Assembly (NCBI RefSeq): GCF_030253575.1
Contig: NC_080568.1
Span: 4,749,501-4,813,500 of the forward strand
Reading direction: 5' to 3'
Source of the DNA: Rhododendron vialii
Lineage: Eukaryota; Streptophyta; Magnoliopsida; Ericales; Ericaceae
Length of the DNA: 64,000 bases
The notes below the pieces were generated by a model. The model saw only the letters and a program-made list of their open reading frames with translations, had not been told where the DNA came from and did not search any database. This document shows, piece by piece, positions 5,115 through 59,576 of this stretch. Position 1 is the first letter of the stretch. Each line of letters opens with the position of its first letter. A program made the translations under genes and the position numbers.

Positions 5115-5262
5115 TGCTATTTAAAAAGGATTTTTCAAAAAATTCCTCCTAGATTCCTCCTCCTTCCAACATTTCTCTCTTTATCTCTCTCCACTTATTA
5201 CCTCTACTATTTTTCAAAAAACTTTTCAAAACACAAATCAAACACAGCACAAATTTCTCCTT
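5115..5262 (-). repeat. dispersed repeat, partner of 195-335
   Basis: The reverse complement of this stretch aligns to 195-335 with few gaps. It lies in the unique interior of the Mutator-like element, in a C/T-rich region whose plus-strand reading frame (4875-5330) is low-complexity and shows no domain. Confidence 0.6.
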
Positions 5263-8566: not shown

Positions 8567-8837
8567 CTCCCTCCGTCTCTTATTTATAGTCCGGTATTTT
8601 ATTTTGGACTGTCCCTTAATAAATGTTTATTTTGTAAAGTTAGTGGGTAAAAGTTGATGAATTGTCTATTTTGTCCCTAAAAATAGATTCCATTTTAAAA
8701 TGTAAGTGAGTAAAAGTGTAATGATGATGGGTAAGTAGGGAAAGTGGAGGAAAAAGTTGATGTGAAATGTATAATGATGATATCTTTTTAATAAGTTGAA
8801 ATTACGAAACAGGACACTTAAAAAGGGACGGAGGGAG
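8567..8837. mobile_element. Stowaway MITE related to the mariner at 19.5 kb (copy 1)
   Basis: 271 bases from CTCCCTCCGTCTC to GACGGAGGGAG, flanked by TA. It is the same family and same length as 59306-59576. Its reverse complement begins and ends like the mariner-like element at 19484-22260, for example TTTTACCCACTAACTTTACA near one end and ATCATCATTA near the other. It looks like an internally deleted relative of that element. Confidence 0.85.
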
Positions 8838-9173
8838 TACGGTAGTACTCTCCCTGTTCCATATTGTTAATTAGTTCTTTAGTTCCAATATTTTAAGGAG
8901 AGTTGTAATGACTATACCTATGTTCAATTATTTTTTTTTGGCTACACTTATATTCAAATTTTATGACGTCATATCCGTTTTTCCCCTTTTATTTTACCTG
9001 CTTTGCACTTGTTATTCAGTTATGAGGGATAATTTTGGAAGATCGATCATATTTCTACTTCCACTTTTAGACAAGGAAATATTTTGGAACATCCTAAAAT
9101 TGAATAATGGACTATCAGAGTAACACTATTCAATGTACATGATAATAGTTACGATCCGCTTACAAGTGACTTA

Positions 9174-9741: not shown

Positions 9742-10216
9742 CTCTCTCCGTTCCAATTTAACAGTCATTTTTAGAGTTCGTGTCATTTTTCAATTGATTA
9801 ATTATATCTTTTAAGTTTTATGTGATTTTGAAAATATTGTATTATAGAACTAATCGGGATTTATCAAACAAATCTATATTGGATATAAAATTTATTAATA
9901 ATTTAAAAATAAAAATAATTATTTATATTCAATTAAAATAGAACGAAAGATTATTAAATTGGAATGGTTTGGGTGGGCCGGCCTAGGCTTGGGTTGGATT
10001 TGGGTGTTTGGGCTTTATTTTTTATTTTGGGTGTTGGGTTTAACTGTAATGTCTTATCTTGTTGTGAACCCTGGTAGACCCTTGGGTGGTTTGGACTATG
10101 CCCTTGTGATGTACAGTATTTTTCAATTTTTTGTTGGATCTCTTTCTCCTTTCCCCCTTTTTTTTTAATAAAATTTTATCTTTTATCCAATAAAAAAAAA
10201 AATTGGAACGGAGGGG
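9742..10216. mobile_element. Stowaway-like MITE interrupted by a LINE tail
   Basis: The left end CTCTCTCCGTTCCAATTT and right end AATTGGAACGGAGGGG are inverted, with TA on both sides (9740-9741, 10217-10218). The element is split by the LINE fragment at 9965-10199; without it the length is about 230 bases, in line with the other Stowaways here. Confidence 0.75.
9965..10199 (+). mobile_element. 5'-truncated LINE 3' end
   Basis: A G/T-rich stretch passes into TTTAATAAAATTTTATC and ends in a run of A, like the 3' end of plant L1-type LINEs. It is bounded by a perfect 9-bp duplication AAATTGGAA (9956-9964, 10200-10208), as produced by target-primed reverse transcription. The plus-strand frame at 9959-10168 is noncoding tail and is rejected as a gene. 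Confidence 0.7.
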
Positions 10217-10845: not shown

Positions 10846-11079
10846 CCCTGCAAATCTTCCTTGTGAATAGCAAGGCTTGGGTTCCCATTTTGTTAACCCA
10901 TCATGTGAAGTGGGTGTAATTAGGGTCAGTTCATATAGAGTTTTGCTCCAATTTTAATTAGACTCTCCGCAAGTGGGCGGTAAAATAGAACCCCCAAGTT
11001 TCGTTGAGGTATGCGTAGTTGGCCCATAATTTCCCAACAAATTTTCACTTCAATTATTATTGTTATTTCTCTATTTATT

Positions 11080-11590
11080 TCTTTCCATTCATTACGGAAA
11101 AACCTCTCTCAGAATCCTGATTAGACAAATGTTTCACCCAATCGATCAATAGTCGATATGTAGTACTCCCTCCGTCCCTAATTAACTGTCCATGTTACTA
11201 TTCCGGACATTTTAAAAAATCATTTATATCTTCTAAAGTATAATATTTTTTATATGCAATATAGATTTTATTTGATAGATTTCGATTGATTCTATTAGAC
11301 AAAATTTTGAAAATTATGAAAAAACAGTATAAATTAAAAGATATAACTCATTTAAAAAATTTTGGAAAAAGTGAAAGTGGACGGTTAATTAGGAATGGAG
11401 GGAGTATTATTTTTAAACTTGAAAGTTGCACAAAACTGCGTAGGGGGACTAATTTATTTCTTTCCACTCATTACAGAAAAACCTCCCTCAAAATTCTGAT
11501 CAGACAAATGTTTCACCCAATTGATCAATAGTCGATATGTAGTATTATTTTTAAACTTGAAAGTTGCACAAAACTTCGTTGAATGACTAA
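11080..11590 (+). repeat. tandem duplication, one copy carrying a MITE
   Basis: A unit of about 140 bases occurs twice. Copy 1 runs 11080-11163 and continues at 11407-11449. Copy 2 runs 11450-11590 without interruption. Shared blocks include CAATAGTCGATATGTAG and TTTAAACTTGAAAGTTGCAC. The only large difference is the MITE at 11166-11404 in copy 1. A MITE-like end GACGGAAGGAGTA follows copy 2 at about 11599-11611. Confidence 0.85.
11166..11404. mobile_element. Stowaway-like MITE with paralogous empty site
   Basis: It begins CTCCCTCCGTCCC and ends GGAATGGAGGGAG, with TA at 11164-11165 and 11405-11406. Copy 2 of the surrounding duplication reads GATATGTAGTATTATTT with a single TA at the corresponding point, so the insertion boundaries and the TA duplication are shown directly. 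Confidence 0.9.
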
Positions 11591-12019
11591 TTTTACGGGA
11601 CGGAAGGAGTAATAAGTGAACGAAGATATCAACTTTACATCTGTTACTGCAAACCTTCCAAGGTCAGTAGCAGAGTAGTCTGTGCAATGGGTCTTCTTTT
11701 CCTCATCATTTTGTCCCTGTAAAACTAGGCATCATCTAGGGTGCATGGGCCTACATGACTCCAATTCATTACGTGGGCTGAAACCAAATACTAAATGCCT
11801 GCCAAATACAGTAAGTAAATGCCTGCCTGCTAATTAATCCCTCCTTATCTGTAAAATGATGCGCATGCGGAAAACTGTCGGCCCAAATTTCTCGGGTCCT
11901 AAAAATTGAATTCGCAGAGGCTTTTGTCCGACGATTGTGTAGCGCTTAGAGCGTGAGTTCTTATGTTCAACTTCTGGCCTCGTTTGATAACAGTGAGTTA
12001 ATGATGGTTGGATTTCGTA

Positions 12020-12270
12020 TTCTATTGTCTCTGTTGCTAAATGAGAGTCCATGTTATTATTCCGGTCACTTCGAAAAATTGTTTATATCTTTTAATTTAT
12101 AATGTAAAAAATATTCAATATGAATATTATTTGATATGTTTTAGTCACTTTTGTTAGACAATTTTTTTAAAATTATAAAATTTATTACTATAAATTGAAA
12201 GATATAAACAAAATAAAAATAACAGGAAAAAATGAAAGTGAAAGTGAACTCTCATTTAGGAACGGAGGGG
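12020..12270. mobile_element. Stowaway-like MITE, left end eroded
   Basis: TGCTAAATGAGAGT at the left and ACTCTCATTTAGGAACGGAGGGG at the right are inverted, with TA at each side. The internal text (TTATATCTTTTAATTTATAATG) resembles the MITE at 11166-11404, so the two are one family. The left terminus has drifted from CTCCCTCCGTTCC. Confidence 0.7.
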
Positions 12271-19340: not shown

Positions 19341-19572
19341 ATTTTCCTTTATATATAAAAGATTCTGTGGCCATTAATTTTTGCTTTCTTATTTTTTCTG
19401 TGCTTAGATAGCCATCGTTTTATTCTCCGTGCAATAAAGTTCCCAATTTCTCCAAGTATGAGTTACGGATAAAAATAGTAGTACTTTTTCCGTTCTTTTA
19501 AATTCAACTTTTTATTCAGACATCATCATTACACTTTACAAATTTTAACTTTTCACAAATGCCCTCCACTTT

Positions 19573-19728
19573 AAAATTGAAACAAAAATTCTACAACCAC
19601 ACTTAAATACACATTTTATCACAAAACACAAGGGTCCCACACATACAGTGTGTGTGGGACCCTTGTGTTTTGTATGAAGGTGTGTAACTTTGGGTGTGAT
19701 TGTAGCATCTCTCAAATTGAAAAGAGTT
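19573..19728. repeat. foldback with perfect 23-bp hairpin inside the mariner leader
   Basis: 19621-19643 and 19651-19673 are perfect inverted repeats (CACAAGGGTCCCACACA core) around a 7-base loop. Weaker pairing extends to about 19573 and 19728 (CTACAACCACAC against GTGTGATTGTAG). Probably a small nested MITE. Confidence 0.75.
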
Positions 19729-20184
19729 GACGTGGACGGTGGACAATTAGTGTAACAGATTCCTTTACTTTGGAGGCGCTAAATTTTGGGCGCCATTTTG
19801 AAATGCTTCTCTGTTTTGGGAAGTGGGAAACTCCTCATTGTAAATTGAAAATGGAAAATGATTTTGCTACTCCCTTTTTTATTAACGACACTCCTCTATA
19901 AGTGTATTTTTGCACAAAAAATACACTTGCAGGGGAGTGGCGATTACAAAAAAAAGAAGTGGCAAAATCAGCAGCCTTGAAAATCTTCTCCAAAATTATT
20001 GGCGGGTTTTTCCAGAAAAAAGTCTCCTAAACAAGAGGCGGGTATTCCTTCTATTTCTTCTAAAAAAAAGGCGCGAATTTCTCGTAAAACAATTGGAATA
20101 TATAAAGACAACTAACCATTTCCAATTTAACTCTACTTCTTCCTTTCCTTTTTTAAAACCTTTGCCTACCTTTTTGAATCCATC

Positions 20185-21471
20185 ATGGATTCTTCCTCCC
20201 AAAACACTTCCATTAATCCCAGATCAAAAAAGAATCTGACGGCTGAACAACGCCAAACAATCTTTGAAACTTTGTTGATAGAAAGTCAACAAGGTGGAGT
20301 TCTCAAACTAAAAAGAGGTAGTTTTACTAAAGTTGCTGCAACGTTCTCGGTGAACCCGAAAACAATTCAGCGAATTTGGCGACAAGGGAAAGCTTGCATA
20401 GCAAACGGCTTGGCTGTCAATGTATTGAGCCGAAAGCCAATGAGGGTTGGCCGCAAGCGTATTGAAATCGATGTCAATGAATTCATTGGACTTGATTTTC
20501 GTCGACGCACTAACATTCGCTCACTGTCAAGTTCGTTGCACATCCCGAAATCAGTTGTGCACAGGAGGATAAAAGAAGGTGAGATCAGAGCACATTCAAA
20601 TGCCTTGAAGCCATATTTAACTGAAGCATGTAAGAAAGCAAGACTTAAGTTTTGAGTTTCAATGCTTGAGCCAACAAGTCTCGAAAGCCAGCCAATGTTC
20701 AAAAATATGTATGACCATGTGCATATTGATGAGAAATGGTTTTACTTGTCTAAAGTATCGGAAAGGTACTATCTACTTCCACAAGAAGAGGAACCAGTGC
20801 GCACTTGCAAAAGCAAAAAATTTATCACAAAAGTCATGTTTCTGGCAGCTGTAGCTCGACCAAGATTTGATTGTTATGGAAATGAAGTGTTCTCCGGTAA
20901 GATAGGAATTTTTCCTTTCACGTTCAAGGAACCGGCAAAGCGAAATAGTAAAAATCGAGTGGCTGGTACATTGGAGACTAAGGCGATTGTATCGGTAACT
21001 AAAGATGTCATCTGCTCGTGTTTGATTGAACAAGTTCTACCAGCTATTCGATCAAAATGGCCAAGTTCAGGAGCAACGGATCCTATTTACATCCAACAAG
21101 ATAATGCAGAACCACATATCAGTCCATTAGATGCTGATTTTGTTGAAGCTGCAAGTAAGGATGGATTCAATATTTGCTTAACTTTTCAACCTACTAACAG
21201 TCCAGATATGAACGTTTTAGATCTTGGTTATTTTCGGGCAATACGATCTCTTCAACATCAAGAAGCACCCGCAACTACTGATGCGCTTGTTCATGCCGTG
21301 GAGAAATCATTTGAAGAATTGTCATCAGATTGTCTCAATCGTGTATTTTTATGGTTACAAGCTTGCATGATTGAGGTGATGAAAGTTAATGGGGGGAACA
21401 ACTACAAATTGCCACATCGGAAAAAGCCAACTGTTAAGAGATGGTTTTGTTCTTCCTGCCCTCCCATGTGA
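20185..21471 (+). pseudogene. mariner-like transposase (DD39D), one in-frame stop
   Basis: A single frame of 428 codons before the final stop, close to full length for plant mariner transposases, which cut and paste the element at TA sites. The N-terminal ~150 residues hold the helix-turn-helix DNA-binding region (KTIQRIWRQGK; later SVVHRRIKEGEIR). The catalytic triad is visible: HIDEKWFY (first D), IQQDNAEPH (second D) and VLDLGYFRAIRSLQ (third D), with exactly 39 residues between the second and third, the plant DD39D pattern. Codon 157 (20653-20655) is TGA where relatives usually have a cysteine codon after ARLKF. No frameshift is present. The start ATG at 20185 follows a 5' leader of about 700 bases. 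Plant mariner identity is secure; loss of function is inferred from the single nonsense codon. Confidence 0.93.
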
Positions 21472-21964
21472 GCTTCAGATTCTAGAAAATGCAATGGCTA
21501 ATCTACAAGAGTGAATCTACTAGTTGTGTGAAGGAGCGTACAACCAGATTCTGTTCTTATTCTCTCATTTTTTTTGTTTCTTTTTTACGCTTAGAGTTGG
21601 AAAAGTATCCCATTTGAAAGTGTTTTTCTCTGTCTCTCTCTTGCAGGTTAGAAGACTGCTTAATTTTTCCTTTTTGCAAAGTTGTTCAGCTTGCTAAGAA
21701 GGCTTTTGGTGGCACTCTTCAAGTCTAGTGCTCTGTATTTTGTGTTTAGGCTGTATTTTGCGATTAGGAAAAGCTTAAATGTATTTAAGATGGGAAAATG
21801 AGAAAAATGGGCGTTGATATGAAGAACTTTTTTTTTGGATCTGATTTGGTTTTTTACTTTTGGGAACCAGTTAGATGATTTGAAGTGTACTCTCTGTTTT
21901 GGGAAATGAAATGAAAGCAGTTGCATCATTTGGAAACCAGTAGTTTTTGGAATTTCCAAAGGGG

Positions 21965-22126
21965 AATGCTACGTACAAAGAAAATTTACCCCGAAAGTAT
22001 TCCGAAAATAGCAATCAATGGTTGAGAATCACTTTGATGATTGGGTCACACACATCAAAGTGAATCTCAACCATTAATTGTTGTTTTCGGGGTACTTTCA
22101 GGGTAAATTTTTTTTGTCCCTAGCAT
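21965..22126. mobile_element. MITE with AATGCTAGGGACA-type ends, nested in the mariner
   Basis: AATGCTACGTACAAAGAAAATT and its near-inverse ending TTGTCCCTAGCATT pair over most of their length, with a central stem AATCACTTTGATG / CATCAAAGTGAATC. The same end type is seen at 37294-37433. Inserted in the 3' noncoding part of the mariner-like element. Confidence 0.75.
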
Positions 22127-22262
22127 TTCTGTTTTGGAATCTAGCTACAAGGGTAAAATAGAAAATGTACTCATTTTTACCCACTAACTTTACAGAATAA
22201 ACACTTATTTAGGGACAGCCTAAAATAGAATAGTGGACCATAAAAAAGGGACGGAGGGAGTA

Positions 22263-44403: not shown

Positions 44404-44810
44404 GATTAAATTCTTTCCACTTTTTCATCATCATCTTTTTCGGTCTTACCGTGTGTTTATTGTTGATCTGAACAGTTCATTTTGTAGACCCCACATAATA
44501 GTGTATCCATGCAAAAAATAAACTTGATCGGACATTAATAAAAGTATCAAAAATTGAATTTTACTTTGTAAAATGCACAGTTTATCTTTGTTATTATTGA
44601 CAGAAATTAAATCGTCCATTTTATCAACCAAAATTCGAATTTTGACATATCTATCGACTTTCGATGAAGATGATTTTTTGCATGGCAATACTATACTAGG
44701 AGTCTTATAATATGAACGGTTCAGATTATAATAATAGATGCATGGTGCGGCCTATAATAGACGGTGGTGAAAAAGTGGGATTGTACACCCGCGGTGAGAT
44801 TTGTTCTCCT
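44404..44810. mobile_element. MITE, same family as 49488-49909
   Basis: It aligns to 49488-49909 along its length, with shared ACTTGATCGGACAT, ATCAAAAATTGAATTTT and ACGGTGGTGAAAAAGTGG. The ends are loosely inverted (AAATTCTTTCCACTTTTTCA / TGAAAAAGTGGGATTGT). No coding content. Confidence 0.7.
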
Positions 44811-49487: not shown

Positions 49488-49909
49488 TAAAATTCTTTTC
49501 ACCGGCGGTAAAAAATCTCATTTTTTTACCATCATCTTTTTCGATTCTACCGTGTGTTTTTTATTGATCTGAACCGTTCATCTTGTAGACCCCCACATAG
49601 TTGTATATTTATGCAAAAAATAAACTTGATCGGACATCGATAGGAGTATCAAAAATTGAATTTTGCTTTGTAAAATGAACAGTTTATCTTTATTATTATT
49701 GACAGAAATCAGATCGTCTATTTTATAAATTTAAATTTAAATTTTGATGTATCTATCGACTTCCGCTCAAGCTGATTTTTTTCATAGCAATACTATACTG
49801 CGGGTCTTAAAATATGAACGGTTCAGATCACAAGAATAGACACTCGGTGGGTCTCATAATGGACGGTGGTGAAAAAGTGGGGTTTTACACCGGTGGTGAA
49901 TAAAATTTA
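49488..49909. mobile_element. MITE with CACCGGYGGT ends, same family as 44404-44810
   Basis: TAAAATTCTTTTCACCGGCGG at the left and the near-inverse ACACCGGTGGTGAATAAAATTTA at the right. Long internal match to 44404-44810. The CACCGG end recalls the MITE at 1101-1489. Confidence 0.7.
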
Positions 49910-53260: not shown

Positions 53261-53742
53261 TTTAGGTGGAAGAGGCTCAGACTGAGAAAATTAAGACTTT
53301 TAGTTTCATCATCCAGTATACATCCTATGTAATGGACTAATCAATTTCAACTATACGTGTTTCTGTACAATCTCTACTAGAATGAGTTCGACGTTACCTC
53401 TGGCTTGTCTCTTCTTCTGCTTATTCTCCTCTCTCTTTCTCTTCCCCGAATCCTCACTATTTCTCCTTTCTCCTCTTCCCCCCTAGCTTTCACCAGTAGC
53501 ATTGAAATCCCATGTCACCGGAAGATGTGAAGTCGATCATAGATTAAGACGTTTCGAAATTATTTGAGCATATACCTATGAAAAACATCTTGGCCGGCTC
53601 CCTATTTAAAGATTTGTTAGATGAGACCAGTGATAAATCCAAATATTATCAGAAATGCGATGTCATCTGAGGAATAATACTACTCCTTTGTATTTTTCTC
53701 CTTGACGTGAATAAACAAGTAGACAAGAAGCATCTGCAAGTT

Positions 53743-56700
53743 TCAGAAATAACTAGTGACTTTAGCCTTTTGCCAACTTTGCACACACATCCTTGAGTTA
53801 ACATCATATTCCCAAAGGCCTGACAAAACCTGGCGCTCCAACTTCTTCCTCCTACCACTGATCCAGTTGTTGTGGAGAATGAAACAGCCCTTCTTCTTGC
53901 AAATCGCTTTTGGATTTGTTCCCTCCCAGAGACCTTGGTATGCACCATTTGGAAAAAGGTCTCTGTCCAAAAAATGGACAGTCAGATTGGTTTCAGGTTC
54001 AAAGCACCTGTCATCGCCCACACGATTGGATCCACCTTCCCCACATAATGTGTCATAGAAACTTGGCTGCTCTGAGAGATTGGACGTCGCTGCATGCTTC
54101 ACTACCTTCTCCAGTGCAGCGACTGTTGAGCCATCATTACGAGCGAAGTAGAACCCAGAATTTAAGCGTCGAGGTACGTTTATGGGTCCTACAGAAAAAT
54201 GCCAAAGTCCAAGCAAAGAAGTTCAGAAAATGAGCACTATACTTGAAGAATAACCAAATGGAGGATTCCTCAGCTATTTATTTTTGACTTCTGAAGTCTA
54301 TGTTAATTGGTATTGTGTAATACCGAAACGAGCACAAAAAACAGATCAGCAGGAGAGCAATAAGAAAATACAAGAGCCAACAATGTCCTGTAACCCTCAA
54401 CATAAAACCTTACAGCCCCCAAATATCCCAGAGACATAGAGGGACACCTTACGTAACTAACTAATCGTACAACTAAATTATAGCACAGGGGGTGGACCTA
54501 GTAGTTATAGTTTTATAGTGGTAATTCAAGATGAATTCGAGACAACTCTCAACAACTTTCAATGTAGGTTCTTCTTCTTGTTTTAGAGGAAGGAAAACAA
54601 AACAAAACCATGGATGCATCATTAGATCAGAATCCAAGACTAATTTCCCAACTCATCTAGTCTATGAATTTTGCTCGTCGTTATCCTAATTTATCACCTC
54701 TTGCTATTAAATAAAGAACATTGAAAAAGGGCAGTTTTTAAAGTTCGGGATTCTTTATATCAACCTGTTTGGTTGTATTCATCAGATTGTGCCACTAGTA
54801 CCGAAGGCCCGAAAGAGTAAAGAAAGGGCAATGGATTTTTAAACCAATAGACATCAACGTCACTCAGAAGCACATTGTAACCCAGCTTCAGTATCTGCAG
54901 AACCAATCTAGACTTCACTTTGGTCACCCTTTGAAAGCATTGCGTTCCAAAGTGGCAGTCATTAAAGCTGATGTTGGTTGGAGCAAGTGAATCCTTGAAA
55001 ACAGGTAGGCCCTACGAGAGAATAATAGGGTTAAACCGAATACGAATATATGAATGACTGCAGTAAAACATGTAAGGTCTTTCCCTACTACAATTAAGGA
55101 CTCCCAACATATGCATAGAAAACACATCAGTTAACAAGCGCTACATATGTATGAATTAAAACCTAGGGTGAGAAAAACTTGATTACCTGTAAAATAGCAA
55201 ACTCGTATATTTCAGGATCAAGAGCACAAACCAGAAAATTTGAGATGAGGAGACTTTTTAATCTGCAGACCCAACTCATTAGCATATCCTTGTAATTATA
55301 TCCGGCAATTGCTAGAACAACTGTTCTATTCTTGTCTGAAAGCCCAGAAAGTAGCATTTCTAAAGAGTAAGGAAGAGATAGTGAATTTGAGGGCTTCAAT
55401 TGGTCCTTCACATAGCAGTCCCTGGTACCATGTAGTGATTTGAAACCATTAACACAATCTGCAACTTTCTTCCCTTTCCTGGATCCCAAGATCTTTTCCT
55501 TCATTAAGGTCAAAGACCTCTGGTTTCCAAATGGGTAAGCAGTAGCTTCTGCGGAATTCACGAAAACATATTGCCCATTGTTCATGCAAAATTTAACCAT
55601 GTTAGAGTAGTTAGCTTCATGGAAATATAATGCTCCATACAGAGACCCAAGTTGCAAATTTCCTACACTCTCCCAGCTTCTGTTTCCACTATTCGTAACA
55701 TTGGAAACTCCAAACGATTGATAAGACCCTTGATCAAGAGGGTTTAGATAGAAATTTGAGATGGCCAAACTTGCATCAAATACAAATCTATATTTAGATG
55801 ATAAGGCCTCGTTAATAACCCAGCTGTTGTGAAGCCCTTTTCCAAACAAGAAAGGAGGAAGCACTCCACTATGTAAAGGAAGGTCTCCATTGTTCCAAGC
55901 CAGAAGCATCCTCTCTTCACAATGCTTCCACTTCCAAGCCTTATCAAGAAACCCCTGCAACTGATGGAAGAGAGTACGATTTTAATGGAAGTTACCCCAG
56001 AGGCCACCCATGTCAAATCTGTATCGGATACCTATTTCCTACCTTTCTGGTTTTAATCTGTTTGCCATCCTCTCCCAGCCAATGTTTCCCATCTTTATCT
56101 AAGTGAAAAGGGAAGTAGGAGACATGTCTTGAGGAAGAAACAAGGAGCCAATCATGGTCGAGTTTGTGAGCATAATTTAGAGCTGAGATGAAGTCAGGCA
56201 AGAGAATGGTTTCAGGATCAATAATGACAGATACATCCGATAGCGATGCCAGTGATCTTGCAACCATTGAGTGAAAGTACGGTGTGCCGAGGAACCTACA
56301 CAATTGTGGACACATATCAGGATTCCACCAAGCAAGATTGACTTTGAAATTTTGAAAGAGCATAATAGAACCAACAAACATTTTGCAAATATTCAAATTC
56401 TCAATAATGATGTTACACACCTTACCATATGGTGAAGATAATGCTCCAGAACAAAACCCTGAATCAATATATACGGTGATTGTGTGTATTTACTCTTGTG
56501 AAGCACAAGGGATTAAACTCTGACATGCCCTCAACATCTATTGCAGCTTGAATGAAATTGATTTTCAACCTTGCACGCCAACAATTATTTTTATATCTTT
56601 CCTATCTTGTCCTCTCACCGCATTTCTTACTTAATCTTATGTTACTATTTCTCTGTTGCTTAACACCACCTATTTCACGTATATAACCACTATACATTTC

Positions 56701-58014
56701 ATTAACACGCACTACTAGCCAAATCAAGTAAATTTACAGCTGTGTGCATACAACTTTTGCACGACTATGGTTATTGATATCTGCAGAGGAATGGACAAAT
56801 GACAGTAAAAACAAAAGTTGACGTATTAAACACCTCACGTAACAGCAAAATCAGAAACCTCGAAACCTCGTATATCCCAAAGGACTAACAAGTAACAACG
56901 ATAATTTTTTAGAAACAGCATTAAACCTTCAGGCATATACACTTTTCTGATGGATCTCTCCATTTGATTGTGGAATAAACAATCGGCTTAAAATTAACAC
57001 AAGAAGTTCACAACCCAATGAGTTTGATATTAGGAATGTGGAGCCCAATGGTATTGTCCAACTTCCCACGCATGTCGTGGATCCAAATTGTAACCCCTAA
57101 GAGTACATATGGCTACTCCAACATACTACGTATCTAGTATCTACTTTACTCTCTCCACCATAGTGAAACAGCCACAACTATCGTGAACAGAGCTCACATT
57201 GGGTGAATCACGTAAATAAGCTGTTCTTATATTTCCTGCATTCATATACCTTATATCCCGTGTTAGAGGGTTCTGCATAGTCCAAACATTTTGGCTGGTG
57301 CTGCCTTTTTCATCGCTGCAATAATGAAATATCTATATTCGATTGCCATCAAAAGATTCAAAACACAAAAACTTCAAAGATCACATAACGTTATTTTCAA
57401 AATGTGACTGATAGTCTCATCCTGAACACATTCCCCCTCGTGCGAATTTCGTTGATGAAGCAAAAATGCTGTAGATAATTGCTCAATTCAGATAAAATGT
57501 ACACATTAAAGTTAGTTACTATTTCCCACAACAAGGCAAGTGTCTTGAACTAAAAAGAAACAAACATTACAAAGAGACTCTTATATTAGCAAAGAAATCA
57601 ACAGTGTAAAGTGTAAACCATGCATGCTTAGCAAATAATTCAACTGCATACACCAAAAATGAAAAGCCCTTACGTGAAATCGATATCAGGTTCAGCTGAA
57701 ACCCTAGAACCAAATTGACCTGCAAAAGAAATAACAGAAGGGTCTTGGGTGAACAGAACAACAGTGATATTTGGGGACAAACCAATCCAAGATCGAATGG
57801 CTTGAACCTGCCTTGCCCCAACTGAACCACTGAGAGGGGGGCTAGGCGCCGTGAATATAGTAATTGTTGGAGTGCCCGAATTGCTTCGACCACGGGGGAA
57901 AATCATCTGGGTATTCTTGATCTGGTCTTTAATTGAGGAAGGAAGCTTCTGAGTAGCATAGAAAGAGAGAGCAATCAAGAGAATCCCAGATAACCAAATT
58001 GACCACAAACCCAT
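53743..58014 (-). CDS. GT77/DUF271 nucleotide-sugar transferase, RAY1-like
   Basis: Likely a Golgi type II glycosyltransferase. The family member RAY1 is a putative beta-arabinofuranosyltransferase acting on cell-wall glycoproteins; donor and acceptor here are inferred. Five exons, minus strand: 58014-57674, 56295-56043, 55960-55187, 55011-54765, 54188-53743; all junctions stay in frame and give 686 residues. Residues ~5-22 (IWLSGILLIALSFYA) form a signal anchor. A first domain includes TFTAPSPP-like ITIFTAPSPP, FLGTPYFHSMVARS and DHDWLLVSSSR. The second holds VLAIAGYNYKDMLMSWVCRL, then the DxD in NVLLSDVDVYWF (exon 4), RRLNSGFYFAR and FLHNN-type CFILHNNWISGR. Intron 1 (1.4 kb) contains retroelement-like text near 57160-57260 that recurs near 60490-60580. 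ATG 58014 is preceded by a duplicated start region (see findings). Intact as read. Confidence 0.9.
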
Positions 58015-58183
58015 TTGAAATGCCTGTGAATCAAAACAAATTTCATCAAAATCAATGCGACAAGAAAAGAAAAGAAAAGATCATTTTTTTTTTGCTGAAT
58101 CACACATTTGGACTGAGTAATTTGGTGAGAAATGGAGAGAAAAGTACAAAGATGATTTTTTTTGATTGGTTTCTTCCCCTTCC

Positions 58184-59305: not shown

Positions 59306-59576
59306 CTCCCTCCGTCCCTTTTTTGTGTCCAGTATTTTATTTTGGGCTGTCCCTTAATAAGTGTCCATTTTGTAAAGTTAGGGGGGTAAAAGTTGGTGTA
59401 TTGTCTATTTTGTCCCTAAAAGTAGATTTTATTTTGAAAAGTTAGTGAATAAAAATGTAATGATGATGGGTAAATAGGGAAAGTGGAGGAAAAAGTTGAT
59501 GTGAAAGGTGTAATGATGATGTCTTTTTAATAAGTTGGAATTACGAAGCAAGACACTTAAAAAGGGACGGAGGAAG
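59306..59576. mobile_element. Stowaway MITE related to the mariner at 19.5 kb (copy 2)
   Basis: 271 bases, CTCCCTCCGTCCC to GACGGAGGAAG, right flank TA and left flank TG (one change). Nearly colinear with 8567-8837, including AAAGTGGAGGAAAAAGTTGA and the ATGATGATG block. Its ends match those of the mariner-like element at 19484-22260. Confidence 0.88.

Follow-up and report, generated by a model that had tools for sequence, protein, structure and literature searches.

A decayed DD39D mariner-like element shares both ends with two Stowaway MITEs in Rhododendron vialii

A 64-kb stretch of the Rhododendron vialii genome (64,000 nucleotides; hereafter the window) holds a mariner-like element and two short Stowaway MITEs. 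A mariner origin of Stowaways has already been stated in print (PMC6881990, in the portion of the article available), and we asked whether these three elements are kin and, if so, whether the mariner is the parent of the MITEs or a relative of whatever their parent was.

The mariner copy and its reading frame

The mariner occupies the bounds given for it in the original prediction, and can be divided into the following parts:

19484-22260, + strand: plant DD39D mariner-like element, degenerate, 2777 bp, with TA on both sides
19484-19496, + strand: left TIR, decayed, agreeing with CTCCCTCCGTCCC at 8/13 positions
19499-19553, - strand: left subterminal DNA, homologous to MITE positions 186-238
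19588-19708, no strand: inverted-repeat hairpin, probable nested MITE 1, 79.7% self-complementary
19859-19970, no strand: inverted-repeat hairpin, probable nested MITE 2, 77.9% self-complementary
20185-20652, + strand: N-terminal part of the transposase; DUF7769 with E = 1.3e-18, Tc3-type HTH below its cutoff
20653-20655, + strand: in-frame TGA
20656-21468, + strand: catalytic part of the transposase, stop at 21469-21471
21412-21514, + strand: probable displaced C-terminus, with frame loss near 21412-21420
21952-22140, no strand: inverted-repeat hairpin, probable nested MITE 3, 80.4% self-complementary
22135-22260, - strand: right arm with intact right TIR (13/13 against CTCCCTCCGTCCC), homologous to MITE positions 1-126

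The TA/TA flanks are the target duplication of plant mariner-like elements. A Pfam search places DUF7769, which we take to be a mark of plant mariner transposases, on the N-terminal part at 66.8 bits (cutoff 27). The three aspartates predicted for this transposase are there as well, encoded at 20728, 21100 and 21220, the second and third being separated by 39 residues, as is the TGA at 20653-20655; motifs and spacing suggest that the three residues form the catalytic triad. The same DD39D spacing is given for plant mariner-like elements (PMC4054914) and for those of carrot (PMC6881990), in the excerpts of both reports used here.

The catalytic half matched no Pfam family and, by sequence, had no relative in the PDB, where one chance match (E 0.2) was returned. 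Searches of viral contigs, plasmids, prokaryotic genomes and phages confirmed no relative of the catalytic half. Of two degenerate motif scans in viral contigs, one yielded six loci and the other zero, and tblastn showed none of the six to be related (best E 1.5). An AlphaFold model of the catalytic half alone, with a pLDDT of 34, was too poor to use.

The TGA had been held to be the element's only lesion, a claim that is probably wrong for the reading frame and plainly wrong for the left end. The transposase frame ends at 21469, and the stretch 21415-21512 is open in the next frame, up to a stop at 21512-21514; within this tail lies the pattern 'PH..K..L.R.G.LP', presumably a plant mariner motif. 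By codon frequencies estimated from 404 codons of the same ORF, the 32-codon tail reaches 4.0 in the new frame, whereas the remaining frames give -6.4 and -4.6. When 33-codon windows from the ORF are read in the phase of the new frame, which is wrong for the ORF, none of 75 overlapping windows exceeds 3.3; in the other wrong phase the maximum is 1.1 (n = 75), and right-frame windows average 2.8, ranging from -11.3 to 12.5 (n = 75, own codons excluded). Per codon, the tail scores 0.12, well under the 0.36 of a control stretch at 21100-21399; non-coding DNA 3' of the gene (21515-21700) reaches up to 0.05 per codon in one of its frames, a sum of 3.0 for 61 codons. We regard a frameshift near 21412-21420 as likely, on a score that is modest.

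Damage extends beyond the gene. All five positions at which the left TIR differs from CTCCCTCCGTCCC are changes from C to T, a pattern suggestive of methylated-cytosine decay, and the three hairpins, which sum to 422 nt, are probable nested MITE insertions. Judged by its sequence, the element is a defective, dead mariner copy: with the TGA at 20653 and, in addition, the probable frameshift, it has no intact ORF of the kind that an autonomous copy carries.

Stowaway elements of the window

Two 271-bp MITE copies lie within the window:

8567-8837, + strand: Stowaway MITE M1, 271 bp, flanks TA/TA
59306-59576, + strand: Stowaway MITE M2, 271 bp, flanks TG (left) and TA (right)

They are of equal length, as predicted, and the TA flanks ascribed to both are found on three of the four sides, the exception being the TG to the left of M2. 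With 243 of 270 aligned bases identical, M1 and M2 share one common architecture. M1 has all the marks of a Stowaway, being short, with the TIR CTCCCTCCGTC and a TA duplication; M2 has them too, apart from its one TG flank. Shortly after M1, a 36-nt piece at 9080-9115 is 83% like the right subterminal DNA of the mariner (E 3e-4) and is possibly a remnant of that element's lineage; a degenerate Stowaway-like TIR also lies near M1, at 8846. M2 sits slightly more than 1 kb upstream of the putative 5' end of a gene on the - strand, where reading frames within about 53700-58100 resemble the exons of a single gene; the frame at 53746-54222 contains a nucleotide-diphospho-sugar transferase domain, and three others scanned in this interval had no Pfam match.

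A second Stowaway family is represented at 1151-1386 (S1), 11166-11404 (S2), 12029-12269 and about 9742-9925, its members about 71-76% alike; S1 and S2, the two complete copies tested, are unlike M1 and M2 inside the TIR. For S2 the window preserves a natural empty site in a tandem-duplicated segment, the copies of which (11073-11165 plus 11405-11455, and 11452-11593) are 91-92% alike. The first copy contains the 239 bp of S2 and one extra TA, and the second a single uninterrupted TA, which is the difference that an insertion duplicating its TA target should produce. Elsewhere, two copies of an element some 370 bp in length that carries long inverted arms (44418-44788 and 49519-49890) are 84-87% alike, the arms of the former being 71% complementary, and are possibly another MITE family; an inverted duplication of about 125 nt (192-318 and 5120-5247, 83-93% alike) falls within similar open frames.

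Homology of the ends beyond the terminal inverted repeat

The mariner lies in inverse orientation to M1 and M2. Its right arm, 22135-22260, is identical to the MITE left arm at 101/126 positions in M1 and 101/125 in M2 (80-81%), and its left subterminal DNA, 19499-19553, matches MITE positions 186-238 at 76% (M1) and 78% (M2) over 55 columns. In blastn searches against the 64-kb window with the TIR included, the MITE left arm gave E values of 4e-28 (M1) and 2e-26 (M2) and the right arm 3e-5 (M1) and 2e-6 (M2), and the matches at both ends agree in order and orientation.

With the outermost 20 nt removed, local scores at the MITE left arm are 101 for M1 and 95 for M2, and those at the right arm 39 and 47, respectively. 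In each of the four tests (two MITEs by two ends), 0/1000 dinucleotide shuffles were as good, the highest reaching 36, and 0/3382 window stretches, the highest reaching 31; these stretches were 140 nt long and taken every 35 nt on both strands, with the neighbourhood of the three elements excluded. The kinship had been predicted to fail if subterminal identity proved no higher than for other Stowaways beyond the TIR. In the same test, run in both orientations and with S2 also in a longer form to 11609, S1 and S2 score 14-24 against M1 and M2, and the mariner scores 39-101; this outcome does not refute the kinship. By these alignments, the mariner and the two MITEs are homologous at both ends beyond the TIR.

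The subterminal match that had been predicted at both ends thus exceeds every control, but it is short at the left end of the mariner (53-55 nt) and does not extend to the MITE middle. Forced alignment of the entire 101-nt MITE right arm with the mariner leaves 52/83 positions identical (Jukes-Cantor distance 0.52). For the MITE middle, about 126-176, no colinear source was found in the mariner, the inner parts of which gave scores of 16-28 in a search run without a shuffle control. Individual pieces do recur: M2 106-152 matches mariner 22217-22172 at 81% (E 8e-6), and M1 147-163 matches mariner 19537-19521 at 17/17 (E 0.004). Given these arm-like pieces, the middle may in part be duplicated arm DNA; an ungapped scan for arm repeats inside the MITEs, again without a control, reached no more than 67-73% in the best 30-nt stretch.

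At the right end of the mariner, the MITE match stops at 22135, almost exactly at the edge of the hairpin 21952-22140, so that the homology may once have run further. At the left end, the subterminal match begins 15 nt from the tip of the mariner and 33 nt from that of the MITEs, about 18 nt that the MITEs possess being absent behind the mariner's left TIR. Self-pairing of the termini over the first 30 columns amounts to 13/26 in the mariner and to 23/30 and 23/29 in the MITEs.

Ancestry of the MITE family

M1 and M2 differ by a Jukes-Cantor distance of 0.121 along the MITE left arm, where the mariner lies at 0.230 from M1 and 0.222 from M2; along the right arm, M1 and M2 are separated by 0.072, against the 0.52 of the forced alignment with the mariner. 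From their common architecture and mutual closeness, M1 and M2 more likely go back to one earlier MITE founder, and the mariner is more likely a separately decayed relative of the MITE source, a cousin rather than the parent, in a comparison that covers three sequences from the 64-kb window and does not polarise the order of events further. Of the proposal that the window holds a parent-type element together with its deletion derivatives, the kinship survives; the word parent was too strong, with M1 and M2 closer to each other. We consider it likely that this dead DD39D mariner is a cousin of the source, and that a founder arising there by internal deletion multiplied in trans into a Stowaway family.

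By analogy with the transposon family, the transposase of the living lineage would have bound terminal and subterminal DNA, cut the element at its ends and joined it to a TA that was then duplicated. Internal deletion would have reduced one member of the lineage to a non-coding founder of 271 bp that kept both ends; MITEs that retain the binding sites would, as in the family at large, move in trans, and the founder would have multiplied in this way into the Stowaway family of which M1 and M2 are two copies. The mariner at 19484-22260 would have decayed independently, acquiring its nonsense codon, the probable frameshift, the damaged left end and the three probable nested insertions. The deletion event, the mobilisation in trans and the order of events are what we infer.

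A left-arm distance from mariner to MITE (0.22-0.23) twice that between the MITEs (0.12) would also suit an origin of the MITEs from a different but related subfamily of mariners, with which the element at 19484 would share older terminal DNA, its own lineage never having been source or helper. The worse fit of the mariner's left end than of its right points the same way, as does the case of rice, in which Stowaways called orphans without cognate autonomous elements were moved in yeast by Osmar transposases (PMC3660474, in the passages available). Against such an origin stand the in-order matches at both ends, consistent in orientation and absent from S1 and S2, and we think it unlikely. Nor do we favour the element itself, or a near-identical copy, as direct parent of MITEs formed by deletion in one step. 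Both mariner ends are represented in the MITEs, and the right arm is 80-81% identical, as direct descent would have it, but the same distances place M1 nearer to M2 than either is to the mariner, and the MITEs have a good TIR where that of the mariner has decayed, keep the roughly 18 nt that it lacks (which the mariner could have lost later) and contain a middle without a colinear source; this descent is most improbable.

That the likeness reflects shared constraint, Stowaway ends being alike as any transposase target must be and not by descent, is scarcely credible. The left end of S2, at 11166, does match the 31-nt TIR of carrot Dcmar1 and DcSto7b (CTCCCTCCGTCCCTWTTTATCTGTCCAHTTT) at 28/31 positions, a better fit than that of the mariner right end (26/31), and the outer TIR therefore does not separate families. 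The match between mariner and MITEs, however, reaches 126 nt inward and is absent beyond the TIR in S1 and S2, and the inner-arm scores contradict an explanation by constraint. The reading that we prefer thus remains that of a dead cousin of the MITE source.

Carrot offers the same kind of pair, a DD39D mariner and a Stowaway family akin in their termini: Dcmar1 and DcSto7b are described as most similar in their 100-nt termini, and Dcmar1 has been proposed as the DcSto7b helper from the termini that they share (PMC6881990, as far as the available text goes). According to the same text, Dcmar1, an element of 4353 bp, possesses the features that transposition requires and shows expression in 4/20 tissues, whereas the element at 19484-22260 is dead. 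Aligned without gaps, the carrot TIR agrees with the right end of our mariner at 26/31 positions and with the four MITE ends at 22-27/31, but with the mariner left end at only 17/31. In rice, Osmar elements and Stowaways such as Ost35 likewise combine a mariner-like transposase with a TA target, and a rice Stowaway was excised in trans in yeast by Osmar transposase; the rice Stowaways are described as orphans, whereas M1 and M2 match a full-length relative at both ends (PMC3660474, same passages). Sugar beet, with Vulmar1 and the VulMITEs, is another plant genome in which a mariner and Stowaway-type MITEs occur together (PMC12804786, in excerpt). The plant mariner-like elements Ppmar1 and Ppmar2 of bamboo have a TIR that also starts with CTCCCTCCGTCCC; the inner TIR differs, Ppmar2 agreeing with our mariner right end at 25/39 (PMC6696609, likewise in excerpt).

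The principle is thus known already, from the helper proposal in carrot (PMC6881990) and the mobilisation of rice elements in yeast (PMC3660474), in the portions of those reports at hand, and the gain here is one further worked example. The MITE arms are traceable to a full-length mariner over about 126 nt on one side and about 55 nt on the opposite side, so that the probable source lineage can be named and sought. It is rather unlikely that the host genome retains an intact sister mariner matching the MITE family along both entire arms; if it does, the cognate source of this Stowaway family would be known and possibly active, and the breakpoints of the deletion could be read.
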